DNA of 33,092 bases from Polyangiaceae bacterium (lineage in GTDB: Bacteria > Myxococcota_A > Polyangia > Polyangiales > Polyangiaceae): positions 1 through 33,092 of the forward strand of contig JAHBVX010000020.1 in NCBI GenBank assembly GCA_019637295.1, in the 5' to 3' direction. Made by a program: the position numbers and the translations under genes. This document shows, piece by piece, positions 1,546 to 29,741 of the stretch. Numbering within the stretch: the stretch's first letter is position 1; each line of letters starts with the position of its first letter. The notes under the pieces were generated by a model. That model worked only from the letters and a program-made list of their open reading frames with translations. It was not told the origin of the DNA and made no database searches.

Positions 1546-1871
1546 CCGCAGGCTACCCTTCGGACGTCATGTCGAGACCGGTGCGGGCCCGGGATTTCGA
1601 CACCAGCGGGGATCTGGTGCCGACAGCGATGACCGTCACGGACGCCATGAGCGCAGTTGCTCCGTCGCGATCCCGGCTCGGGCCCCGAGCCGCCCGCCTC
1701 CTCCATCGCGCGCGAGGCCGTCGCGCGCAAGCCCGCGCGCAGGCCGCACGGATGCAACAGGTCGTGCGCTCGTCGCGTCGCGCGGCGGCCGAGCACGGAG
1801 CGAGCACGTCGGCCGAGCCCGCGATTTGGGGGAGGCAAGCTGCGCGTCAGCGCAGCGGGTGGGGGCAACAA
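1546..1871 (+). repeat. Repeat copy R1: deletion derivative of the regulator locus, ending in a hairpin block
   Basis: Bases 1546-1620 match 6249-6323 (the -10-like TACCCT, start codon and first 17 codons of the regulator at 6272). Bases 1621-1845 then match 6977-7203, just past that gene's end, with a few substitutions. About 650 bases of regulator are absent. Bases 1800-1871 are identical over 72 bases to 4206-4277 and contain a perfect 7-bp stem with a GTCA loop at 1839-1856. Recognisable rhs sequence begins immediately after 1871. The TTGACG found upstream of the intact regulator is not retained here. Confidence 0.85.
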
Positions 1872-3026
1872 GACAACGCCCACGGCGAGCTCGCGACGCA
1901 GACCGCGGAGGTCGACGCCACGCCGCTGCTCGACATCGCCTACCACACCACCTCCGATCCCCGCGACGCGCTGGGCCGCATCACCAAGAAGACCGAGTGG
2001 CTCGACGGCACGACCACGACCTGGACGTACACCTACGACTCCCTGAACCGCCTGCACGTCGTCACCAAGAACGGCCAGCCCTTCGCGACCTACACCTATG
2101 ACCTGAACGGCAACCGACTGACCGTCGACGGCTCCACCACCATCGCGACCCACGACGACCAAGACCGCCTGCTCAGCTACGACGGCACGACGTACACCTA
2201 CGGTCAAAACGGCGAACTAAAGACGAAGACCGACGGCACGGACACGACGACGTACACCTACGACGCGCTGAACAATCTGCGTCAGGTGGTCCTCCCGAAC
2301 GCCGACACCATAGAATACCTGGTAGACGGCCTTGGTCGTCGCGTCGGCAAGAAGAAGAACGGCACGCTGGTCAAGAGGTGGCTCTTCAAGGATCAGCTCG
2401 AGCCCATCGCCGAGATCGACGAGCCGTCCGGCAACGTTCGCCGCTTCATCTACGCTTCGCGTGCGCACGTGCCCGACCTGATGATCGACAATACGGGGGT
2501 CTACCGCTTGCTGACCGATCAACTCGGCAGCGTGCGCCTCGTGGTGCGTGTGAGCGACGGCGCCGTCGTGCAGCACATCGACTATGATCCGTGGGGCGTG
2601 CCTACGGTGGTGACCGGAGACTGGACCGTGCAGGGGTTTGGGTTCGCGGGCGGGGTGTACGACGCGGAGACGGGGTTTGTGAGGTTTGGGGCGCGGGACT
2701 ACGACGCGAGGGTGGGGAGGTGGACGGCGAAGGATCCGATACGGTTTGATGGTGGCGACAACTTGCTCATGTACGCGTTGGGGGATCCGGTTGGGAAGGT
2801 TGACTTGGATGGTCGGAACCCGATCGCTGTGGTGTGCCGGTTCTTAATCCAGCGGGCATTCTCGTTTCTCGTGACTAGCTCGATCTTCGGGGCGAAGGCA
2901 GGGCCGACCCCGAGCGGGCCGGGAGGACTATGCACTGGTCCAACAGCCCCGCCACCCCCACCAACCCCACCCCAAGGACCGAATTGTTCAGGGTGCGATC
3001 CAGAGCCACCCCCCCTATGTCAGTAG
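1569..3026 (+). CDS. Displaced RHS 3' fragment fused in frame to repeat R1, with hydrophobic/Pro-Cys tip
   Basis: The frame is open from 1386. ATG 1569 is the copied start of the downstream regulator, and it is in frame with everything that follows. Residues 1-101 are translated repeat R1 (MSRPVRARDFDTSGDLV, then Arg/Ala-rich). RHS homology starts at about base 1872 with YD-repeats (TYTYDSLNRL, TYTYDLNGNRL) and runs to the core end (RFGARDYDARVGRWTAKDPIRF, YALGDPVGKVDLDG). The tip is about 68 residues: a hydrophobic segment (AVVCRFLIQRAFSFLVTSS), then a Pro-rich, Cys-containing tail. An intact rhs gene is usually several-fold longer, so this is an orphan tip or pseudogene; whether it is translated from 1569 is unknown. 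The core ends in DLDG rather than DPLG, so canonical self-cleavage is doubtful. Confidence 0.65.
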   Translation: MSRPVRARDFDTSGDLVPTAMTVTDAMSAVAPSRSRLGPRAARLLHRARGRRAQARAQAARMQQVVRSSRRAAAEHGASTSAEPAIWGRQAARQRSGWGQQDNAHGELATQTAEVDATPLLDIAYHTTSDPRDALGRITKKTEWLDGTTTTWTYTYDSLNRLHVVTKNGQPFATYTYDLNGNRLTVDGSTTIATHDDQDRLLSYDGTTYTYGQNGELKTKTDGTDTTTYTYDALNNLRQVVLPNADTIEYLVDGLGRRVGKKKNGTLVKRWLFKDQLEPIAEIDEPSGNVRRFIYASRAHVPDLMIDNTGVYRLLTDQLGSVRLVVRVSDGAVVQHIDYDPWGVPTVVTGDWTVQGFGFAGGVYDAETGFVRFGARDYDARVGRWTAKDPIRFDGGDNLLMYALGDPVGKVDLDGRNPIAVVCRFLIQRAFSFLVTSSIFGAKAGPTPSGPGGLCTGPTAPPPPPTPPQGPNCSGCDPEPPPLCQ

Positions 3027-3763
3027 ACACAGCGAGTCGGGCTGCCGATCGTTCTCGCAGCGTCGTGTTTGCAGTCATTCATACCTCGATTTGGGTAGGG
3101 TTGAGCGTGTGGGTGCTTCCGCAGCCAGCCACGACTGTAGTCCGACTGGTCACCGGCGCGCTTCTGCTGGCGATGACGGTAGCCGCCGCCTACACCGGTT
3201 TGGTCGTGGTGCGTGAAGATCGCGAGAAATCGCGCCAGATCCATCTGCAGGATCTGCTCGAGGTAGGTCCCATAGCTCTGCTGCTCCTCGTTGGCGTAGG
3301 GATGGCATCCTCTGGAGTTCCACGTCTTCTGGCCTGCGTGCTGGGCGCGCTGTTCATCGCGACGATCTTCTCAGTCGCAAAGCGTGTAGCGACCTCGACG
3401 CCTCCGGCGTCGGTGCAGCAACAGTTTGTACCGCCTCGTCTGTGGGTGCTCGCGACGGCGCTACGAAGCCTGGACGGGCAGGAGCGTACTGGGGTCGGAT
3501 GCCTCGCAGGTGCTGCTGGGATCCTGGGGCTCGTCGCCACAGTGCTGCAACTCGTGTCGATCGCGGGTGCGTGGATCGTTGTGGAGCTGCTCCTCCCTGC
3601 GGTAGCATTCGTTGCAAACGTCCCGCGGCGGGCTCTCGGCGGACTCGTGGCCGGCGGAGCGCGAGCTTCTGTCGGGCCTTTCGTTTTCGCCGCTGTCCAG
3701 ACCTCCGCGTCGACCGTACCGGCTGGCCTGCTTTGGGTCGCCTGGGCGGTGACCGCCGCATGA
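3017..3763 (+). CDS. Polytopic membrane protein, likely immunity partner of the displaced RHS tip
   Basis: I chose ATG 3017 (MSVDTASRAADRSRS) because it overlaps the rhs stop at 3024-3026 by ten bases, as for a coupled immunity gene; an upstream in-frame start at 2930 would lie deep in the rhs tip. The product has about 248 residues with roughly six hydrophobic segments (for example SVVFAVIHTSIWVGLSVWVL, LVTGALLLAMTVAAAYTGLVVV, VGPIALLLLVGVGM, LLACVLGALFIATIFSV, and two or three near the C-terminus). No family is recognised. A membrane-embedded partner fits a membrane-acting toxin, which matches the hydrophobic segment in the preceding tip; that link is inference. Confidence 0.65.
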   Translation: MSVDTASRAADRSRSVVFAVIHTSIWVGLSVWVLPQPATTVVRLVTGALLLAMTVAAAYTGLVVVREDREKSRQIHLQDLLEVGPIALLLLVGVGMASSGVPRLLACVLGALFIATIFSVAKRVATSTPPASVQQQFVPPRLWVLATALRSLDGQERTGVGCLAGAAGILGLVATVLQLVSIAGAWIVVELLLPAVAFVANVPRRALGGLVAGGARASVGPFVFAAVQTSASTVPAGLLWVAWAVTAA

Positions 3764-4095
3764 GTTATCAGCCAATCGTCCGGCGTTCCAGCGCCCTACA
3801 GACGCTCGGTGAACTGCATGGCAGTCAGAAACGAGGGTCGTCGAGGACTTCGGTGACAGTGGCGCCCTTGTGATTGAGGAACCACCGGAGTAGGCGATGG
3901 TCTTGGTTGCTACGGGTGCATCTGACGTGGACGCAGGTATCCAGGATGGGTCCCCCGTTCCGACGCGACGCCCCAGCAACGCGGAGCGAAGGCCAACCCT
4001 ACCCGCCCTCGCCACACCCTCCCCAGTCGCCCGTCCCATGACGCCCACCGCAACGCGGTTGTCCACCACCACACGCCTCGTCCCCTCACGTCGAA
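3764..4095 (+). other. Non-coding or decayed stretch between immunity gene and repeat R2
   Basis: No convincing gene on either strand. A plus-strand frame is open from 3897, but its product here (poly-Thr/Pro/Arg) does not look like a natural protein. On the minus strand, 3825-3998 stays open and reads partly like protein (LDTCVHVRC, then DHRLLRWFLNHKGATV) but has no start codon and ends at a stop at 3825. It may be a relic of a deleted gene. Confidence 0.4.
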
Positions 4096-4727
4096 TCGCC
4101 GGCCTCCTCCATCGCGCGAGAGGCCCGTCGCGCGGAGCGCGCGCGCAGGCCCGAATGACGAGAAGCGTCTTCTCCCCCTTCTCACCCCGCCGGGGCCGAG
4201 CACGTGCGAGCACGTCGGCCGAGCCCGCGATTTGGGGGAGGCAAGCTGCGCGTCAGCGCAGCGGGTGGGGGCAACAACAGAGCTTCGGATTTGCGGGTGG
4301 GGTGTACGATAGCGAGACGGGGTTGGTGAGGTTCGGGGCGCGGGATTACGACGCGCGGGTGGGAAGGTGGACGGGGAAGGATCCGGTGCGATTCGAGGGG
4401 GATGGGCCGAACTTGTATCCGTATGTGCTTGGGGATCCGGTTAACTTCATCGACATCACTGGTGAAAATGCCGCACCTCCCATGCCCATCCCGTGGTGGG
4501 TGTGGGCGGGGGCGTTCTCGAATCCGATTACAGCGCCGGTTGCGCTGTGCGTCGGGGCAGCTTTGTTGATGACGGGGGATTCGTCCCGGGAGAGCGAAGC
4601 GGCGAAGCGGGCACGTTGTAGTCAACACGCATTGCGCGTGTTCGAGGATTGCATGAAGCATACCGGCGACACGCACAAGTGCTTGGGCAGTATGGATCGT
4701 GCCTTTCTCCGATGTATGAATGGGTAG
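3897..4727 (+). CDS. Short displaced RHS core end with Cys-rich tip, fused to repeat R2
   Basis: The open frame begins at ATG 3897, but only 4278-4727 is recognisable protein: the last RHS core segment (SFGFAGGVYDSETGLVRF, ARDYDARVGRWTGKDPVRF, YVLGDPVNFIDITG) and a tip of about 90 residues. The tip has one hydrophobic segment (PWWVWAGAFSNPITAPVALC) followed by a helical Cys-containing end (CSQHALRVFEDCMKHTG, HKCLGSMDRAFLRCMNG). A 66-base stretch around 4325-4390 is identical to the core end near 487-552. Everything upstream of 4278 is repeat or unassigned DNA, so this is most likely a stranded tip awaiting or left by recombination rather than a working secreted toxin. Confidence 0.55.
   Translation: MVLVATGASDVDAGIQDGSPVPTRRPSNAERRPTLPALATPSPVARPMTPTATRLSTTTRLVPSRRIAGLLHRARGPSRGARAQARMTRSVFSPFSPRRGRARASTSAEPAIWGRQAARQRSGWGQQQSFGFAGGVYDSETGLVRFGARDYDARVGRWTGKDPVRFEGDGPNLYPYVLGDPVNFIDITGENAAPPMPIPWWVWAGAFSNPITAPVALCVGAALLMTGDSSRESEAAKRARCSQHALRVFEDCMKHTGDTHKCLGSMDRAFLRCMNG
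4096..4277 (+). repeat. Repeat copy R2: diverged Arg/Ala block plus identical hairpin block
   Basis: The left part (about 4096-4150) resembles R1 and R3 around their CCTCCTCCATCGCGCG core but is diverged, with inverted repeats GGCCTC...GAGGCC and GAGAAG-CGT-CTTCTC. Bases 4206-4277 are identical to 1800-1871, including the 7-bp stem, GTCA loop hairpin at 4245-4262 and the GGGGGCAACAA end. Rhs core sequence starts at 4278, exactly as at 1872 in R1. Confidence 0.8.
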
Positions 4728-5118
4728 GTGGGACTTGAATGTCGAGGACCTTGAACGTGAGTTGGAGGAGGCACTCCGGGGTTCCGTTCACGATAGTGGC
4801 AGCGCTGCGGCCGCGATTCTCCGCATCCGTCGCGACGCGCAAGCACACGGCTATCAACGCTTGGCCACTGCGTGTCTAGGGGCGCTTAGCGTCATTCTGC
4901 CTGCCGAAGAAGCGGTCGTGCACGCTGACGCGCGCGCTACTGAAGACCCCAGCACGATTTCGCACTTGGCACGAGCTCGGGCGATGGCGGAAGTGGGTCG
5001 ACGCAACGAAGCGCTGCAGAGCTACATCAAGGCACTTGAGGTCGAGGGGCCTGACGGCGACGCCGAGCTCTTGAGCCTCTGTCTAGCGGGTTTGACTAGT
5101 TTGCTCAGCCAGCGATGA
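4720..5118 (+). CDS. Small helical protein, likely immunity partner of the Cys-rich RHS tip
   Basis: 132 residues from ATG 4720, overlapping the rhs fragment's TAG (4725-4727) by eight bases. The product is soluble and predicted all-helical with a TPR-like look (ISHLARARAMAEVGRRNEALQSYIKALEVEG is the clearest repeat; an acidic helix DLERELEEAL lies at the N-terminus). No catalytic motif is seen. The overlap with a toxin-tip frame and the lack of enzyme motifs suggest an immunity protein that binds its toxin. A TPR-like adaptor is the alternative. Confidence 0.6.
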   Translation: MGRWDLNVEDLERELEEALRGSVHDSGSAAAAILRIRRDAQAHGYQRLATACLGALSVILPAEEAVVHADARATEDPSTISHLARARAMAEVGRRNEALQSYIKALEVEGPDGDAELLSLCLAGLTSLLSQR

Positions 5119-5160: not shown

Positions 5161-5506
5161 ATTCTGCCAGCTCGAGCCCATCGCCGAGATCGACGAGCCC
5201 TCGGGCAAGGTCCGCCGCTTCACTTCACCAGCCCACGTCGCGGACCTCATGATCGACCACACGGGCGTCGCCCACCGCCTCCTGGCGGACTAGCGCAGCG
5301 CGCGCCTCGTGGGCCGAGTGAGCGACGGCGCCGTGGGGCAACACATCGACTGCGATCCCTCGGGCGTGCCCACGCTGGTGACCGGGGACCGGACGGATCA
5401 GGGGTTCGGATTCGGGGGTGGGCTGACGCGGAGACAGACTCGGAGGTTTGGGGCGCGGGACCACGACGCGAGAACTCGCGCGCGAGTTCGAGGCCGGCGA
5501 CCGTGA
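5161..5506 (+). pseudogene. Decayed RHS core fragment
   Basis: Translation gives QLEPIAEIDEPSGKVRRF, HVADLMIDHTGVAHRLLAD, then an in-frame TAG at 5291-5293 where the intact copies have QLGSVRL. After it RVSDGAVGQHIDCDPSGVP continues in frame. Small indels follow (GFGGGLTRRQTRRFGARDHDAR instead of the AGGVYDAET...RFGARDYDAR pattern), and the sequence ends before any tip. No start codon or partner gene is evident. The DNA is close to the copies at about 200-500 and 2395-2710, so this is a recent but dead duplicate. Confidence 0.8.
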
Positions 5507-5569
5507 ATAGAAGGTGCGCCGTTCAGTGACCCCTTGACGCCCACTCCCGACCCGCACAAGCTCCCCATC

Positions 5570-6238
5570 ATGGACATCCGGGAGGTCACGGTCCTGATCG
5601 TCGATGACGAGACGCTCGCGCGAGCAGCGATGCGCAGGGCGCTGCGCCCACTGTCGCCCCTGCGCATCCTGGAGGCCGAGACGGGCGCCGAGGCGCTCGA
5701 CCTCATCGAGCGCGAGCAGCCCCACGTCACGCTGCTCGATCTCGGGTTGCCCGACATCTACGGGGTAGAGGTGCTCCGCCGCAGTCGTCGCAAGGGCTAT
5801 CAGGGCGCCGTCCTCGCGGTGACCGGCGACGCGCGACAGCGCACCCGCAGCCGCGTGCTCGCGTCCAAGGCCGACGACTACATCGTGAAGCCCTTCAGCA
5901 CCGCGGAGCTGCGCGAGCGCATGGTGATGGTGCTGCGCCGGACGCGGAGCTTCGCTCAGCCGCTCGGCCGCCCGCGGCTCGAGCTCGATCGCGAGGCATG
6001 CCGACTCCGCGCCGACGGCCAGGAGTTCGAGCTCACGCTGACCGAGGCCCGTCTGATGGATTGCCTTCTCGAAGCAGAGGGCACCGTCGTCACCCACGAG
6101 CTGCTGCTGGCCCAGCTCGACACACCAACGCCGGGCGCCCTTCACGCGCACGTCCGCCGCCTGCGTCGCAAGCTCGGGCCGTACGGCAAGCTCATCGTCA
6201 CTGTCGCGCGCCGCGGCTACCGCCTCGCGACTCCTTGA
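5570..6238 (+). CDS. OmpR/PhoB-family response regulator
   Basis: 222 residues from ATG 5570 (MDIREVTVLIVDDE); an in-frame TTG at 5534 would add 12 residues. The receiver domain has the acidic pair D12/D13, phospho-acceptor D57 (LLDLGLPD), T85 (AVTGD) and K107 (VKPFS), so it should be phosphorylatable. The C-terminal winged helix (about 135-220) ends in the family's HVRRLRRKLG...RRGYRL signature. No histidine kinase is encoded nearby, so it is an orphan here. Its stop is followed 33 bases on by a second, receiver-defective regulator, suggesting a pair. Confidence 0.92.
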   Translation: MDIREVTVLIVDDETLARAAMRRALRPLSPLRILEAETGAEALDLIEREQPHVTLLDLGLPDIYGVEVLRRSRRKGYQGAVLAVTGDARQRTRSRVLASKADDYIVKPFSTAELRERMVMVLRRTRSFAQPLGRPRLELDREACRLRADGQEFELTLTEARLMDCLLEAEGTVVTHELLLAQLDTPTPGALHAHVRRLRRKLGPYGKLIVTVARRGYRLATP

Positions 6239-6262
6239 CGCCCGGGCCCCGCAGGCTACCCT
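6235..6262 (+). promoter_or_regulatory. Candidate sigma-A-type promoter for the regulator at 6272
   Basis: TTGACG (6235-6240), a 16-base spacer and TACCCT (6257-6262) stand 9 bases before the ATG. The -35 overlaps the stop codon of the upstream response regulator. In repeat R1 the -10 and start region is duplicated but the -35 is not. The leader would be very short. Confidence 0.45.
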
Positions 6263-6271
6263 TCGGACGTC

Positions 6272-6988
6272 ATGTCGAGACCGGTGCGGGCCCGGGATTT
6301 CGACACCAGCGGGGATCTGGTGCTGCGCGCCATCGTGCGCGGGCGGCCCCGGTCGAGCCGAGGCGCGGGCACTGAGATTGTCGAGTGCGCGTCGACGGAC
6401 GAGCTGCTGTACGTGCTTCGCTGGCGGCCCGCGGTAGCGATCGTGGCGGCGGGTTGCGATGACGAAACTCGGTCGCAGCTGGAAGCGCTCAGCGCCCATG
6501 TGTCCGTGACGTTCGCGCCGCGCGCGTCGGTAGACGAGACGTCCGCTCTGCTAGCGGAGAGCATGAGCGTTCACCCGCGCGCACCTGCCCACTTCCTGTC
6601 GCCGCCCACTTGGGAGGGCCTCGCCGGCGCCGTGTTCTCCCTCGGCGGCCTGCGCGTCGACCGCGCGTGCCGGGTCGCGTGGCTGTTCGGGCGGCACGTG
6701 GATCTGACGGACACGCTGTTCGACGGATTGCTCGCGCTGTGCGACCAGTGGACGGTGTCGCCGGAGGCTCTGCTCCCGGTCGACACGGTCATCGAGCTCT
6801 CCAGCGGCGAGCGCCACGTCTTTGGCTACGACGACGCAAAGCGCCTGCGCGGAGAGTTCGGGTGCAAGCAGCTGATCCGCACGAGCGCCAGACGCGGCTA
6901 CGCGCTGCGCAAGCTCGAGACGCCGCCCGCCGCGGCGAGAAAATCCGAGAGCGGCCTGCGGCGCGCAACGAGGTTGCGACAGCGATGA
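6272..6988 (+). CDS. Winged-helix regulator with degenerate N-terminal domain
   Basis: 238 residues. The N-terminal part (about 1-110) is receiver-sized (DELLYVLRWRPAVAIVAAGCDD) but lacks the acidic pair and Asp-Lys pattern needed for phosphorylation. The C-terminal part (about 125-215) matches the PhoB/OmpR winged helix: GGLRVDRACRVAWLFGRHVDLTDTLFDGLL, then RLRGEFGCKQLIRTSARRGYAL. It follows the intact response regulator in tandem, so heterodimerisation or phosphorylation-independent control is possible. Its first 17 codons and upstream -10 region are duplicated at 1546-1620 as part of the repeat that abuts an rhs fragment. Confidence 0.82.
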   Translation: MSRPVRARDFDTSGDLVLRAIVRGRPRSSRGAGTEIVECASTDELLYVLRWRPAVAIVAAGCDDETRSQLEALSAHVSVTFAPRASVDETSALLAESMSVHPRAPAHFLSPPTWEGLAGAVFSLGGLRVDRACRVAWLFGRHVDLTDTLFDGLLALCDQWTVSPEALLPVDTVIELSSGERHVFGYDDAKRLRGEFGCKQLIRTSARRGYALRKLETPPAAARKSESGLRRATRLRQR

Positions 6989-7203
6989 CCGTCACGGACG
7001 CCATGAGCGCAGCTGCTCCGTCGCGATCCCGGTTCCGGCCCAGAGCCGCCCGCCTCCTCCATCGCGCGCGAGGCCGTCGCGCGCAAGCCCGCGCGCAGGC
7101 CGCAAGTGTGCGACGGGTCGTTCGCTCGTCGCGTCGCGCGGCGGCCGAGCACGGAGCGAGCACGTCGGCCGAGCACGGAGCGAGCACGTCGGCCGAGCCC
7201 GCG
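6977..7203 (+). repeat. Repeat copy R3: Arg/Ala-rich block downstream of the regulator
   Basis: It matches 1621-1845 in R1 with scattered substitutions and, more weakly, the left part of R2. It contains GCCTC...GAGGC and GCGCGC...GCGCGC inverted repeats. Unlike R1 and R2 it stops after GCCCGCGA and lacks the hairpin and GGGGGCAACAA block, and no rhs sequence follows. It is therefore the probable parental context of the repeat. Confidence 0.8.
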
Positions 7204-7209
7204 AGCTGA
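6985..7209 (+). CDS. Possible small basic Ala/Arg-rich protein
   Basis: 74 codons whose ATG overlaps the regulator's stop as ATGA (6985-6988), a spacing typical of coupled genes in this window. The product is MTVTDAMSAAAPSRSR, then Arg/Ala-rich, then two tandem AEHGASTS units. The same frame is preserved in R1, where it runs on into rhs. However, differences between the copies are not biased to synonymous sites, and high GC keeps many frames open, so this may be a non-coding repeat. Confidence 0.25.
   Translation: MTVTDAMSAAAPSRSRFRPRAARLLHRARGRRAQARAQAASVRRVVRSSRRAAAEHGASTSAEHGASTSAEPAS
7144..7191 (+). repeat. Two perfect tandem 24-base units
   Basis: Units 7144-7167 and 7168-7191 are identical; each encodes AEHGASTS in the frame of the small ORF. 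R1 carries a single unit, so copy number differs between paralogous copies, consistent with slippage. Confidence 0.85.
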
Positions 7210-7325
7210 GCGCCACCCGGGCGACCGATGGGCCTCTCACCTTCCGCGAAGCGCCATCGGCTTGACGATGGCGGACTTCGGCGATCCACCTCAGTGGTTC
7301 TGCTGCACCGTGGTAGAGTTGGTTC

Positions 7326-7550
7326 GTGACCCGGGCTGCTGAAGAATCGCTGAGCCCCCCAACAGAGCTGCCGTTTCTGGAAGCCCTGTCGTGGTTCGAC
7401 AGTCACTGGCGTGAGCTCAGCCCGCTCGACGCGCTGCGCCGCTACGAAGCGGGCTGGCGCCATCGTGGTGTGCTAGCTGAACCCTCGGAGGACGAACTCG
7501 AGTTCGTCCGCGCATTGGTCGTCCGCTACGGCAGCGTGCTCGATGTATGA
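7326..7550 (+). CDS. Small hypothetical protein paired with an AbiEii-like nucleotidyltransferase
   Basis: 74 residues from GTG 7326, preceded by a -10-like TAGAGT at 7314-7319. No domain is recognised. The sequence is acidic and helical with several Trp (LSWFDSHWRELSPLDALRRYEAGWR, SEDELEFVRALVVRYG). Its stop overlaps the start of the nucleotidyltransferase gene by eight bases. By position it could be the antitoxin of a type IV-like pair, though it is much shorter than classical AbiEi antitoxins and no helix-turn-helix is visible. Confidence 0.55.
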   Translation: MTRAAEESLSPPTELPFLEALSWFDSHWRELSPLDALRRYEAGWRHRGVLAEPSEDELEFVRALVVRYGSVLDV

Positions 7551-8268
7551 GCGGCCGCTCCATCGGACGATCGCTCGCATCCTGCCGGCGTTCAACGCTT
7601 CAGCGCTCCGTGCCTGGGAGTGCTACTTCGCGGGAGGAACCCGGATAGCGCTCGAGTTGAGCGAGTTTCGCCAGTCGCGCGACATCGACTTCCTGTGCTC
7701 TGCGGCAGAGGGCTATGCCAACATGCGGCTCGCTGTGCGGGAGCAAGGGTACGCCGCGCTGTTTGACGGGGCGGAAGCGTCAGGCATGGCGTTCCCGCGC
7801 GAGATTCGGTCGGATCAATACGGGATCCGCTTTCCCGTGGTGGTGGGCAACACCCGCGTCAAGGTCGAACTGGTGAGGGAAGCTCGGTTCGAACTGTCGT
7901 CGCCGGTCGAGCCTGGATGGTCACCGGTCAGTTGCATCAGCCACGTCGATTGCTTCACGTCCAAGTTGCTCGCGAACTCGGATCGTTGGGCGGACCGCGA
8001 TTCGCTCTCTCGGGACCTCCTCGATCTCGCGGCTCTGCGCCTTGCCCATGGTCCGGTCCCCGAAGGCGCCTGGCAAGCCTCGGAGCTGGCCTACAAACGC
8101 GCCATCGTCGAAGACCTGACCCGGGCGGCGAGTCTCTTCGAGGGAGACGCTCGCCATCGAACACGCTGCTTCGAGGGCCTAGAGATGTCGAGCGACCGCC
8201 ATGCGGAGTTTCGGGAGGCGGTACGCTTGCTAGCCGGGGAAGCCGCCGCTCGGTCACGGTCATCATGA
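7543..8268 (+). CDS. AbiEii/AbiGii-type nucleotidyltransferase (toxin family)
   Basis: 241 residues. The family signature is clear: YFAGGTRIALEL (Gly-Gly-Thr at 31-33) and RQSRDIDFL (Asp47-Ile-Asp49), the pattern of DNA polymerase beta-fold nucleotidyltransferases of the AbiEii/AbiGii group. Further conserved-looking parts are NTRVKVELVREA and a CFTSKLLANSDRWADRDSLSRDLLDLAAL segment, matching the family's KL.A..DR...RD..DL motif. Known members act as toxins of type IV toxin-antitoxin or abortive-infection systems by adding nucleotides to tRNA or other targets. The first gene of the pair overlaps it. Family assignment is strong; the toxin role is by analogy. Confidence 0.85.
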   Translation: MYERPLHRTIARILPAFNASALRAWECYFAGGTRIALELSEFRQSRDIDFLCSAAEGYANMRLAVREQGYAALFDGAEASGMAFPREIRSDQYGIRFPVVVGNTRVKVELVREARFELSSPVEPGWSPVSCISHVDCFTSKLLANSDRWADRDSLSRDLLDLAALRLAHGPVPEGAWQASELAYKRAIVEDLTRAASLFEGDARHRTRCFEGLEMSSDRHAEFREAVRLLAGEAAARSRSS

Positions 8269-8375
8269 CAGCGTCGGCGCTACCGCCCGCCCCAGAAGCG
8301 CCTGCAACACCACCCGTGCCGTTGAGGGCGAAGTGTCGGCAACACGCGTGGAGCCCTGTGCAAAGTAGCCCGAGC

Positions 8376-9272
8376 TCAGCTTGGGCGGCCTCGCCCGCGA
8401 CCCGCCAAGGGCTCGACTTCGACCGCATCCGCCGCTTCGGCTTCGGCGGCTTCGGCGGCCTCGGCGGCCTCGGCGGCCTCGGCGGCGACGTCGCTCGCGC
8501 CCGCGTCGATCCGTACCCGTCGCTCATGGCTCTGCAGGCTCTCTCGCACCGCCCGCTCGACCTCTAGGAGGACCTGGTCCGCGAACTCCCCGCGGGTGAT
8601 CTGTCGTCGTCGTATGGCGCGCCGGAGTCCCACGAAGGAGCCTATGGCCGCGCCGATGCCCACCAGTGCAGCCACGCCCATCACGACCGGGAGACCACTC
8701 GCCCTGGAGAGGTCTGCCGCCTGAGCGATCGCCACGCCCGCCACCGTGCCGAGCGCCCCCGCCATGCCACCGGCGAACGCGGACAAGGTCCCGAAGCCGA
8801 CCGTCATCTGGCCGCGCTCCGCGAGCGTCTCGACGTAGCGAAGGGTAGTGACGCCGTCCTTGGCGCTGACGGTAACAGCAGGCTCGAGGAGTGCGCCGGG
8901 CGGTGTCCATGTCAGCGTGTTGCCGACGGCGGAGACACGTCCCGGGATCTTCATGTTCATCGAGATTGTCTCCGCGATGGACTCGAAGCTGTCAGGCGAG
9001 ACCATGCCGTCGATCTGAACGATGCGTTCGACCCGTATCGCTCCGTCGTCCTCCGTCGCGGGGCTCTCGGTGGGACGCTCCGCCATTGCCTGGCGCGCTA
9101 CTTCCGAGGAGATGCCCAGGGCGTGCAGGCGTTGCTCGAGTTCAGCCACCGTGAGCGCCTTACCCCCGAACTCCTCCTCTGGTCGTGCGAGCTCCAGCGC
9201 CGTGGCACGCTTCAAGATCCGTCGCACCTCCTCCGGAGGAACGCGACGCTCTCGAAAAGGTGGGTCCGTCAC
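8376..9272 (-). CDS. Hypothetical membrane protein with C-terminal EAA repeats
   Basis: 298 residues from ATG at 9272. The N-terminal 75 residues are helical and charged (PPEEVRRILKRATALE, LTVAELEQRLHALGIS), resembling a SHOCT-like or regulatory helical segment. Residues about 80-165 look like a beta-rich domain. Two adjacent hydrophobic segments follow (FAGGMAGALGTVAGVAIAQA and LPVVMGVAALVGIGAAIGSFVGL), then an Arg-rich stretch and a low-complexity AAEAAEAAEA tail. I do not recognise a named family. It overlaps the 3' end of the DUF5615-like gene by four bases and may be the last gene of that minus-strand unit. Confidence 0.7.
   Translation of the reverse strand: MTDPPFRERRVPPEEVRRILKRATALELARPEEEFGGKALTVAELEQRLHALGISSEVARQAMAERPTESPATEDDGAIRVERIVQIDGMVSPDSFESIAETISMNMKIPGRVSAVGNTLTWTPPGALLEPAVTVSAKDGVTTLRYVETLAERGQMTVGFGTLSAFAGGMAGALGTVAGVAIAQAADLSRASGLPVVMGVAALVGIGAAIGSFVGLRRAIRRRQITRGEFADQVLLEVERAVRESLQSHERRVRIDAGASDVAAEAAEAAEAAEAAEAEAADAVEVEPLAGRGRGRPS
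8433..8487. repeat. Nine-base microsatellite inside a gene
   Basis: On the plus strand, GGCGGCCTC/GGCGGCTTC-type 9-base units occur in tandem. On the coding (minus) strand they encode repeated Ala-Ala-Glu. Changes by one unit keep the frame and would alter only tail length. Confidence 0.75.
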
Positions 9273-9721
9273 GGACTCGATACTACTGCAAACCCGAGCG
9301 CGCGACGGCGCCCGCGTCGTGCCCGCGACGCACCGACAAAGACATCTACCCAGCTTCTTTGTCGGTCAGACGCGATCACGGCGCGACGCGAGTGGCGGGT
9401 GGGATGCCGAGGCTTCGAGCTCGCCGAGCAGCGCGAGCCGATCCGCGGGCGGTCGGGGATTTGCTCGCGGTCGGGTCGAGTGGTGGCGTGGGTGCGAGCC
9501 TGCATGATGCTGGGTCCCAACTCCCCGGCCATGGCGACGAGAATCCCGAAGTCGAGGTCGTGGGTGAACACAACGGCGTGGTGGGCAAGTGCCCAGGCAA
9601 CGAGTTCCAAGTCCGGGGCACGAGGGTTGCCGATCTTTGACCAGTGGCACGCTTCGTGTCCTGCGTCGTTCAGAATGTCGACCCACCTTGGTGAAAGGTT
9701 CATGTCGACCAGGATCTTCAT
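9269..9721 (-). CDS. DUF5615-like PIN-fold protein, probable toxin
   Basis: The start at 9721 gives MKILVDMNLSPRWVDILNDAGHEACHW, the hallmark N-terminus of DUF5615 (PIN-like, Mut7-C-related) proteins. DLELVAWALAHHAVVFTHDLDFG then carries the conserved acidic residues, and ELGPSIMQAR the core end. PIN-fold proteins are usually metal-dependent RNases. The predicted 150 residues exceed the usual length of about 115-125, and the last 60 (after QARTHATT) are Arg/Ser-rich and unlike the family. Another frame there (ADRLALLGELEA) looks more family-like, so a frameshift is possible. Its ATG overlaps the antitoxin-like gene's TGA (ATGA). Confidence 0.8.
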   Translation of the reverse strand: MKILVDMNLSPRWVDILNDAGHEACHWSKIGNPRAPDLELVAWALAHHAVVFTHDLDFGILVAMAGELGPSIMQARTHATTRPDREQIPDRPRIGSRCSASSKPRHPTRHSRRAVIASDRQRSWVDVFVGASRARRGRRRALGFAVVSSP

Positions 9722-9954
9722 GATGCCCGAAGCGGTACGTCGACCTCCTCGGCTCTCCACGCGGCGTACGAGAGCGCCGCGTGAACGTCCTCCTTCTCGA
9801 GGTAAGGATGGAGTTCCAGAACGTCGCTTACGCTCTGACCGGAGGCGAGCAAGCCTACGAGAGTGCCGACCGTAACGCGAAGGCCGCGGATGCAGGGTCG
9901 GCCCCCCATCACGCCGGGATCGTGCGTGATCCGGTCGAGCAGTTCGTGCGACAT
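9718..9954 (-). CDS. DUF433 family protein, probable antitoxin
   Basis: 78 residues: MSHELLDRITHDPGVMGGRP, then CIRGLRVTVGTLVGLLASGQ and a C-terminal helix pair (LHPYLEKEDVHAALSYAAW). The pattern DPxVxGGRPxIxGxRxxV is diagnostic for DUF433, a small helix-turn-helix family commonly encoded just upstream of DUF5615 proteins. The stop overlaps the toxin-like start in ATGA, so the two should be co-translated. Start CAT at 9952-9954; the 180 or so bases upstream toward 10139 hold no other gene and presumably the promoter. Confidence 0.88.
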   Translation of the reverse strand: MSHELLDRITHDPGVMGGRPCIRGLRVTVGTLVGLLASGQSVSDVLELHPYLEKEDVHAALSYAAWRAEEVDVPLRAS

Positions 9955-10139
9955 GCATCCAGTGTACCCCAAAATCCGGCCGCGGCGATGGCGTAGCGTC
10001 CGCAGTGACCGGGGCGCGACGCGGGGACGAGCGCACCGCGCTTGCGAACCGCGCCCGCGCCGCTCGTGGCTCCACCAGAGCCACCGCCACCTCGTGTAGG
10101 CATCAGACGCGACAAGAGCGCCAGAGCGACGCCGAGCGC

Positions 10140-10796
10140 TCAGAACGCGCCTCGATACCCTACCGCGCCGCCGAACATGTTCTCGAAGGCGAGGGTGTCC
10201 GGGTTCTTGCGATAGAGGTTCAGGTAGGCGCTGAATAGCGTTGCTTCGTAGTAGACGCCGTGGCGCTCGAAGAAGCCGGCGGGCGGGACATAGTCGAGCT
10301 CCACGCCGACGCGGGCGGTCCAGTAGAGGGACGAGGGCGGGTAGTAGTTCGAGTCGATGTGAGAGTACTGCTCGGGAACGCGAGTGAAGAAGCCTTCGCC
10401 CCCGGTGTAGAGCAGGCCGGGGCCGACGTAGATGGGGACCACCCGAAAGTCGCCGAGCCGCTGGTCGAAGGGGCGGATCAGTATCTCCAGGGACGCCGCG
10501 TGTACGGTGGTGCCGACGAGTGAGGCTGGAGTGAAGCCGTAGTGAGCGCTCACGTTCAGCACGTCGTCGAAGGCGGCGTAGCCCACGCCCACGGCCACCA
10601 GCCCGACGAAGCCGCCGGTTTGAAGCCGAACGAAGTCGGGCACGTACCAGCCGAGCTCGTCCGTGTCCCGTTGGTGCCGGCGCGAGGGAGCGTCTGCGAC
10701 GGAGTCGTACTCGGTCATGGGCGCTATCCTCTCGCCGCTGGCGGGCGAAGCGAGAGCGGCCACGCCGAAGGCGATCAGAGCGGACCGCCCGCTCAC
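10140..10796 (-). CDS. Probable outer-membrane or secreted protein, unknown family
   Basis: I chose GTG at 10796 because it overlaps the upstream gene's TGA (GTGA) and gives a clean signal peptide (SGRSALIAFGVAALASPASG). The mature part of about 195 residues is rich in Tyr, Phe and Gly with alternating hydrophobic stretches (FVRLQTGGFVGLVAVGVGYA, VVPIYVGPGLLYTGGEGFF, SLYWTARVGVELDY, YYEATLFSAYLNLYRK) and ends in GYRGAF, a C-terminal aromatic typical of outer-membrane beta-barrels. It likely spans or sits in the outer membrane and is co-translated with the metallophosphoesterase. No specific family is recognised. Confidence 0.65.
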   Translation of the reverse strand: MSGRSALIAFGVAALASPASGERIAPMTEYDSVADAPSRRHQRDTDELGWYVPDFVRLQTGGFVGLVAVGVGYAAFDDVLNVSAHYGFTPASLVGTTVHAASLEILIRPFDQRLGDFRVVPIYVGPGLLYTGGEGFFTRVPEQYSHIDSNYYPPSSLYWTARVGVELDYVPPAGFFERHGVYYEATLFSAYLNLYRKNPDTLAFENMFGGAVGYRGAF

Positions 10797-29590: not shown

Positions 29591-29685
29591 TCTACGCTCC
29601 CCAGGGTCGCAGCGCGGGTTCGTACTCGGCGACCATCGATGTCGCGGGCGTGGTGGACGTGGTCGGTGTGGTCGGCGTCGCGCTC

Positions 29686-29741
29686 GCGAGCGCGACGACG
29701 ACGACCCACGTTGGGTCGCGAGCGCGAGCGCGACGACGACG
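29686..29741. repeat. 18-base direct repeat around a palindrome
   Basis: The same 18 bases (GCGAGCGCGACGACGACG) occur at 29686-29703 and 29724-29741. Between them lies the palindrome GACCCA-CGT-TGGGTC (29703-29717). The surrounding 29591-29905 holds no recognisable gene on either strand; GTC/GAC triplet runs suggest slippage in neutral DNA. Confidence 0.7.

Follow-up and report, generated by a model that had tools for sequence, protein, structure and literature searches.

The DNA analyzed here, one whole 33-kb contig (33,092 nucleotides, hereafter the window) from a Polyangiaceae bacterium, carries an array of rhs gene fragments, two of which lie directly behind copies of the same repeat. This repeat belongs to a dispersed element whose 3′ end, in a minority of its copies, is the exact start of a second copy of the tail of an upstream gene. 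In sequence the element resembles a class II purine-motif intrastrand triplex, and it is apparently able to fold as a three-stranded hairpin. The explanation that we prefer for the duplicated tails, and to which we give roughly an even chance of being correct, is an additive recombination: the gene tail would provide the anchor at one end, and a stop of DNA synthesis at the triplex would set the other, nonhomologous end.

The first-pass annotation of the window had described an identical 72-base block in front of two rhs fragments, and sequence comparison bears this out: bp 1800–1871 and 4206–4277 agree at 72 of 72 positions, have the same end base, and both end in GGGGGCAACAA. The perfect 7-bp stem that it placed in the block is also present (GCTGCGC-gtca-GCGCAGC, bp 1839–1856 in the first copy). 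The rhs coding sequence begins at bp 1872/1873 after the first copy and at bp 4276–4278 after the second, at different rhs positions. The repeat unit exceeds this block, which is the 3′ half of the dispersed element; it spans bp 1697–1869 and 4103–4275, and with the few boundary nucleotides that follow, the two full-length copies are R1 (bp 1697–1873) and R2 (bp 4103–4277), while a third copy, R3 (bp 7053–7204), is truncated at its 3′ side, retains the 5′ half only, and is without the purine strand, second hairpin, and third strand described below. All three lie on the forward strand. The first-pass reading of the region left of R1 as the start of a regulator gene joined to its downstream flank with about 650 bases missing proved accurate as well. 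Directly 5′ of R1, bp 1546–1696 (forward strand) join the start of the regulator locus to its 3′ flank: bp 1546–1620 are identical (100%) to 6249–6323, bp 1621–1821 are 94.5% identical to 6977–7177, and the 653 bases between (6324–6976) are missing. The undeleted locus, a regulator-like gene (bp 6272–6988) with its 3′ flank and R3, is still present at bp 6249–7204 on the same strand, so the left part of R1 probably derives from that locus. In the bacterium's own genome (7.65 Mb in 25 contigs), the full 72-mer occurs at two places, both in the window; partial matches lie at C20:533329, C20:535517, and C13:7180, and a longer query found further copies of the repeat at C20:533219 and C20:535402. 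The sequence GGTGGGGGCAACAA has exactly three occurrences in this genome, and all of them end this repeat.

From 5′ to 3′ the element is composed of a pyrimidine strand CCTCCCCC, a hairpin (often GCGCGCAG..CGAGCAC in the compact copies), TTT, a purine strand GGGGGAGG, a second hairpin, a third strand GGTGGGGG, and a terminal CANC, which among 130 copies is CAAC in 45, CAGC in 23, CATC in 22, and CACC in 10. In R1 these parts are the pyrimidine strand at bp 1697–1704, the purine strand at 1828–1835, the second hairpin at 1839–1856, the third strand at 1858–1865, and CAAC at 1866–1869; in R2 the pyrimidine, purine, and third strands are at 4103–4110, 4234–4241, and 4264–4271, with CAAC at 4272–4275. 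The pyrimidine strand of both is CCTCCTCC, one wobble short of perfect. The blocks change together between classes of the element (GGGAGGGG with GGGGTGGG, GGAGGAGG with GGTGGAGG, GGGGAAGA with AGTTGGGG, and GGGGGAGA with AGTGGGGG), and variants are class-specific within a genome. With the third strand running antiparallel to the purine strand, the predicted triplets are G.GC, A.AT, and T.AT. In a first set of 57 copies, 51 were usable and 41 of these have eight of eight compatible triplets; when reduced to 17 distinct combinations, 118 of 136 cells are compatible, against 97.6 ± 3.9 after shuffling (0/10,000 shuffles reached the observed value) and 92 in the wrong polarity. An earlier and cruder anchoring had given 231/288 against 202.6 ± 4.9 (0/5,000). 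All 73 copies of a second set were usable and 43 were fully compatible, and their 33 combinations gave 203/264 compatible cells against 177.6 ± 5.3 shuffled (0/10,000), with 165 in the wrong polarity. The purine strand was chosen by a rule that favors G-rich runs, and misplaced picks were counted as failures. The upstream pyrimidine strand matches at 8/8 positions in 30 and at 7/8 in 17 of the 51 copies; since purine strands of other classes give 7/8 in 34.7% of 663 control trials, and 8/8 in 2.9%, only the 8/8 matches are telling. The block order and triplets are thus those of class II purine-motif intrastrand triplex (ITxF) elements, but the loops are hairpins of ∼20 nt to >100 nt rather than the 1–6 nt of that class, so a search for ITxF motifs would miss these elements.

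Other identities for the element fared poorly. Rfam gave no gathering-level match in the window or at a second locus of the same genome (L015), and at 14 further loci only three weak matches, far below the gathering scores of their families; a known RNA family was therefore rejected, and a resemblance to hepatitis delta virus-like ribozymes was dropped for want of an Rfam match. A coding role was rejected too: the reading frame stays open from both R1 and R2 into rhs, but the two conserved halves of the C20 copy lie in different frames, and in-frame fusion is therefore not something that the copies have in common. The A/C-rich tail of 3–4 nt after CAAC in the first copies had suggested an RNA intermediate; this was abandoned because close copies share the tail and because, as reported by Holder et al. 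(2015, PMC4666352), RNA does not form purine-motif triplexes.

Two sequence models, one of the 3′ half of the element and a second built from compact copies, were used to search 108 genomes of the family and 183 of the order, respectively. RNAalifold structures of both models did not contain the intended fold, and they were used as sequence finders only. The first model found 63 matches in 21 of the 108 family genomes and the second 256 matches in 50 of the 183 genomes of the order, 49 of these 50 in the window's own family (totals are sums of per-genome counts). The named relatives that carry the element are Polyangiaceae, and a pattern scan of GTDB contigs found three stretches in two Polyangiaceae metagenome-assembled genomes. 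The sequence GGTGGGGGCAACAA is present in 7 of the 108 family genomes at ten places, compared with one place for a reversed control pattern. Seven of the ten are outside the bacterium's own genome; those in G001 (one), G092 (one), and G093 (two) end a repeat that is recognizably alike, although the stretches examined there contain no match to rhs, and the three in G020, G058, and G067 stand at no such repeat. Most of the genomes are draft assemblies, but the repeat pattern is also present in the five-contig genome G051, and its copies differ by 1–22%, both of which make an assembly artifact unlikely.

The 3′ boundary was assessed by counting elements at whose expected end (within 4 nt) a direct repeat of 40 bp or longer begins whose other copy lies upstream. 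The first set comprised 57 of the 63 matches, 55 of which had enough sequence; a repeat starts at the element end in 13 of these 55, compared with 39 of 21,803 positions drawn at random from these loci and 0–1 of 53–55 when the position was shifted by 20–100 nt. The second set consisted of 73 of the 256 matches, chosen from the list regardless of their flanks and with earlier copies excluded, and gave 11/73 against 44/28,040 random positions and 0–1/73 at the shifts. The second set is partly dependent on the first, in that some genomes are shared and the model was trained on first-set copies, though not on their flanks. One row was removed from each set, G094:C100 (two neighboring tRNA-Ser genes) and G088:C56:1050 (a tandem array of the element), leaving 12/55 from six genomes and 10/73 from five, in comparison with a random-position rate of 0.16–0.18% in both sets. 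G044:C325:9610 is outside the 11 because its second copy lies downstream rather than upstream, and G116 was left out because the element there is part of a large tandem repeat (L254, G116:C1:6137600–6151700; units of ∼3.5 kb, 85–89% identical). The first base of the repeat is 2–8 nt past CANC, the fifth base being the commonest start. In 22 of 31 junction rows the six bases before the two repeat copies agree at only 0–2 positions, so microhomology is not the rule; five rows are element-to-element matches with 6/6 identity, and two more agree at 4/6 (one G097 row and G116). In the open-access literature searched, as far as its available text goes, we found no description of such an element with an exact 3′ boundary to direct repeats.

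The duplicated tails are those of rhs, GroEL, malate dehydrogenase, a FadB-like gene, HU, a PEGA-domain gene, and others. The gene could be identified in 11 of 22 clean cases (rhs in five, FadB-like in two, and malate dehydrogenase, HU, PEGA, and GroEL), and in all 11 the gene and the element point the same way. An apparently intact malate dehydrogenase or PEGA-domain gene lies upstream with a C-terminal piece recognized by Pfam after the element; the FadB-like hydroxyacyl-CoA dehydrogenase and HU genes are likewise apparently intact upstream, with the tail after the element recognized by the repeat. The FadB-like case has two units in a row and a tail of 58 amino acids without a Pfam match of its own. 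In the window and in G052 the rhs parent runs off the contig; in G119 the parent frame is 2,031 amino acids long. In G009 a GroEL tail follows the first element (Pfam) and a shorter one the second; the longer of these two tails serves as the upstream copy, and the contig has no full-length groEL. The distance from the gene to the nearest element is 0 to ∼3 kb in most identified cases. Among the genes in these stretches are some for DUF559, four-helix-bundle, and YcxB-like proteins, and next to the second unit of G009 there is a SUKH-like gene. Pieces of protein-kinase and VgrG-like genes follow other elements, with no upstream copy detected. In G065 (L123, bp 417–716, and L124), two elements are each followed by near-identical VgrG-like C-terminal coding sequence (Gp5_trimer_C in the one tested), VgrG being a tip gene of the type VI secretion system (T6SS). 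At L074 (bp 7200–8536, G001:C102) there are several copies of a tRNA-Ser-like 3′ end, each followed by the same short tail, and one of them closely follows an element.

These results bear on what the first-pass annotation had made of the block, namely an element that moves or caps rhs tips. A discrete element with an exact and reused 3′ boundary is indeed present, but neither specificity for rhs nor tip capping was upheld; an rhs-specific element is rejected because tails of GroEL, malate dehydrogenase, FadB-like, HU, and PEGA genes are joined to it in the same way. The end of the block does adjoin rhs repeatedly elsewhere: rhs-like coding sequence lies in the 200 nt directly 3′ of 10/128 elements, starting 1–9 nt after the element, compared with 0/124 in a control window of equal length 200–400 nt 5′ of the model match, and one further rhs was found by Pfam after the element at G044:C264. 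Most copies, on the other hand, adjoin non-rhs genes or intergenic DNA. It had also been asked whether the block might be a common intergenic repeat; it is dispersed, with mostly non-rhs neighbors, but its flanks are not random. Decay at random, which the first-pass annotation already disfavored, is a poor explanation of a boundary shared so far above the random-position rate in both sets.

In the recombination that we favor, DNA with a gene tail, cargo, and an element would be added beside the resident copy of the gene. One side would be anchored by homologous pairing in the gene tail, and on the opposite side the incoming strand would be synthesized only to a few nucleotides past its third strand, because the new strand would fold into the triplex; the stopped end would then be joined back to the resident gene slightly upstream of the anchor. 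The product would be a gene with a partly imported tail, followed by cargo, element, and second tail. At rhs a new C-terminal tip would thereby be swapped in and the old one left as an orphan module behind the element, and the mechanism may in this way account for the accumulation of orphan toxin tips downstream of a main toxin gene; such rhs tips would be one prominent outcome of it. In favor of the proposal are the exact boundary in both sets of copies, the apparently intact parent genes upstream, the covariation of the third strand, and the common orientation of most neighboring elements (25 of 28 pairs within 20 kb). Holder et al. (2015, PMC4666352) report that R-type triplexes can arrest polymerase and that BoxC/PIT elements block DNA polymerase in vitro. 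The gene side of the proposal draws on the differences between tail copies, which are mainly synonymous (synonymous/nonsynonymous: malate dehydrogenase 7/0; rhs of G052 28/8; FadB-like 2/0 and 7/2, the last 2 lying in the codon after the stop). The coding tails of GroEL and HU are identical or nearly so and are uninformative in this respect. Such a pattern points to two functional alleles that were joined, rather than a duplicate decaying after an insertion, and hence, on the gene side, to imported DNA that entered by homologous recombination; it suggests that the tail copies are imported alleles.

A number of observations weigh against this proposal. No such duplication is present in the examined stretch for 42–43 of the 55 and 62–63 of the 73 copies, and the ten clean second-set cases come from five genomes, with five of them in G051 and two sharing one left copy. 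The purifying signal is weaker in the G097 rhs tails (14/8 and 15/12), in PEGA (40/32), and in the window itself (4/3 in the R2 pair and 37/22 between the first tip and the R1 tail). A comparison of empty sites at the FadB-like locus adds nothing either way, as the downstream flank does not align between genera. The triplex is a prediction from sequence, and in the accessible text of Holder et al. (2015, PMC4666352) PIT elements had no effect in vivo, in vivo footprinting showed no triplex, and BoxC had no link to mobile elements. No enzyme or transfer route was identified, and no search for one was made. Finally, in three cases there is no cargo, and these fit an insertion with a long target duplication equally well: a duplicate of 209 bp (99% identical) flanks only the element at G001:C77:31313, as do duplicates of 546 bp (97.8%) at G051:C1:1306474 and 2,915 bp (92%) at G051:C1:483073.

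These cargo-free copies, in which the element alone stands between two repeats, are the reason that rival explanations keep some of the probability, and the main rival, a small nonautonomous transposon, gains most directly from them. Such an element would jump and create long target-site duplications of variable length, with cargo arriving later or being carried along. Its dispersed, multi-copy, and class-specific occurrence within a genome would suit it. We nevertheless think it rather unlikely, as the counted duplications of 45–2,915 bp are far outside the usual range of target-site duplications, most duplicated cases hold 0.8–3 kb or more between the left tail and the element, the two ends are not terminal inverted repeats, and a predominance of synonymous differences is hard to obtain from a dead duplicate. 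MITEs (miniature inverted-repeat transposable elements) and REP (repetitive extragenic palindromic) sequences are short, dispersed, and hairpin-forming, and the element resembles them in these features. It differs from them in that it has neither terminal inverted repeats (its ends are CCTCCCCC and GGTGGGGG plus CANC) nor short target duplications, and in that only its right end is fixed.

A less probable alternative, one that we consider improbable, is that rhs tips were displaced one after another in the ordinary way, through homology-facilitated illegitimate recombination, and that the G-rich intergenic repeat at the break is no more than a fragile site. This route has been proposed for T6SS effector arrays and is said to have been hypothesized for rhs orphan arrays as well (Kirchberger et al. 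2017, PMC5361080, in the text available). A fragile site should yield scattered breakpoints, whereas the repeats almost never start at the 20–100 nt shifts; the result for the second set speaks against the absence of a preferred boundary, and the covariation of the third strand asks for a structural role. The many nontoxin genes involved are likewise difficult for a displacement peculiar to rhs. The displacement of T6SS effector-immunity modules, as given in the accessible part of that paper, is similar to our proposed recombination in that a new tip and immunity gene arrive at a conserved gene and push the old module downstream, with homology on one side and illegitimate joining on the other; it differs in that here the illegitimate end is a structured element and many nontoxin genes are concerned, and no end motif is named there.

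Integron-like cassettes, that is, genes with a folded 3′ recombination site used by a site-specific recombinase, appear quite improbable. Like integron attC sites, the element is a structured, apparently single-strand site 3′ of cargo genes with genome-specific variants, and its arrays are mostly in one orientation: neighboring elements no more than 20 kb apart have the same orientation in 25 of 28 pairs (among 130 copies examined), the exceptions being in G051, G088, and G094. The core box of integrons is GTTRRRY. This box lies within 14 nt of the boundary in 0/130 elements and its complement RYYYAAC in 3/130, compared with 1/130 random segments that have either. Moreover, the units are in the tails of unrelated genes rather than on one platform, and the symmetry is that of a mirror (triplex) rather than of a simple imperfect palindrome. 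Simple tandem duplication of a gene together with the element is not favored, as in the pairs compared the likeness of the two tails ends before the cargo and the element.

Among known repeats the nearest in design are BoxC, PIT, and TM_ECO of Escherichia coli. According to the accessible text of Holder et al. (2015, PMC4666352), they also have pyrimidine, purine, and reverse-Hoogsteen blocks in this 5′–3′ order on one strand and are G-rich, dispersed, and linked to genome variability. The element described here differs in its 8-nt blocks, its long hairpin loops in place of loops of 1–6 nt, its consensus, and its CANC tail, as well as in its exact 3′ boundary to direct repeats, no such boundary being described in that text. 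By reading, the TM_ECO/BoxC pattern, CCCTCNCCC N3-6 GGGNGAGGG N3 GGGNGAGGG, does not fit it, as block length and loops are different.

The array in the window runs rhs tip, open reading frame (ORF), R1, rhs tip, ORF, R2, rhs tip, and ORF, followed by a decayed rhs remnant, two regulator genes, and R3; the rhs fragments, the ORFs behind the tips, the elements, and the regulator locus with R3 are on the forward strand. The first tip (bp 2–1012) is the 3′ part of an upstream rhs gene that has lost its 5′ end at the contig end; it has its own C-terminal extension and is the parent of the duplicated tail. The fragment directly after R1 occupies bp 1873–2750, and its bp 2196–2745 are 88.8% identical to bp 2–554; the parent of the start of this tail would lie beyond the contig end. 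The fragment directly after R2 occupies bp 4277–4442, and at its first bases begins a direct repeat of bp 439–552 in the upstream rhs (91%) and of 2631–2792 in the second tip (78%). TEN_YD-shell or RHS_repeat domains are found in three ORFs, as in an rhs orphan-module array, with the main gene cut by the contig end. The ORFs behind the three tips (bp 1013–1420, 2930–3763, and 4720–5118) have no Pfam match and are immunity-like by position only. The decayed remnant at bp 5168–5472 has one internal stop, no element in front of it, and 78% identity to bp 2394–2710.

Of the two regulator genes, that at bp 5534–6238 encodes a response regulator (Response_reg and Trans_reg_C by Pfam); the one at bp 6272–6988 is of similar size, has no Pfam or NCBIfam match, and may be a diverged relative of it. 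Farther downstream, an AbiEii-type nucleotidyltransferase toxin gene (bp 7543–8268, Pfam) and the small ORF directly upstream of it may form a type IV toxin–antitoxin pair, and an imperfect palindrome of ∼38–71 bp (a self inverted repeat) lies at bp 29,668–29,740. Elsewhere in the same genome, small ORFs lie between two element copies (L015, bp 8450–10,370; C20:533450–535370); three that were tested have no Pfam match, and the ORFs may be orphan toxin/immunity pairs at a site that has no rhs gene nearby.

Intrastrand triplex repeats are present in many bacterial genomes and are connected there with genome variability, with no function assigned to them in the available text of Holder et al. (2015, PMC4666352); the element described here adds a defined boundary. 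For orphan effector tips, the explanation so far has been an illegitimate recombination whose end is left undefined (Kirchberger et al. 2017, PMC5361080, in its accessible part). The two themes meet in the Polyangiaceae, where the same structured element stands at the end each time. It is possible, though we hold this only tentatively, that this family has a cassette-addition system in which a dedicated DNA triplex serves as a programmed stop and fixes the end of the incoming DNA, so that genes join resident tails at reproducible junctions, which would need only homologous recombination and a self-folding end, and which would diversify rhs tips among many other loci. A long-standing guess about how such arrays arise thereby becomes testable, and the element can serve as a marker by which gene additions in these genomes are traced.

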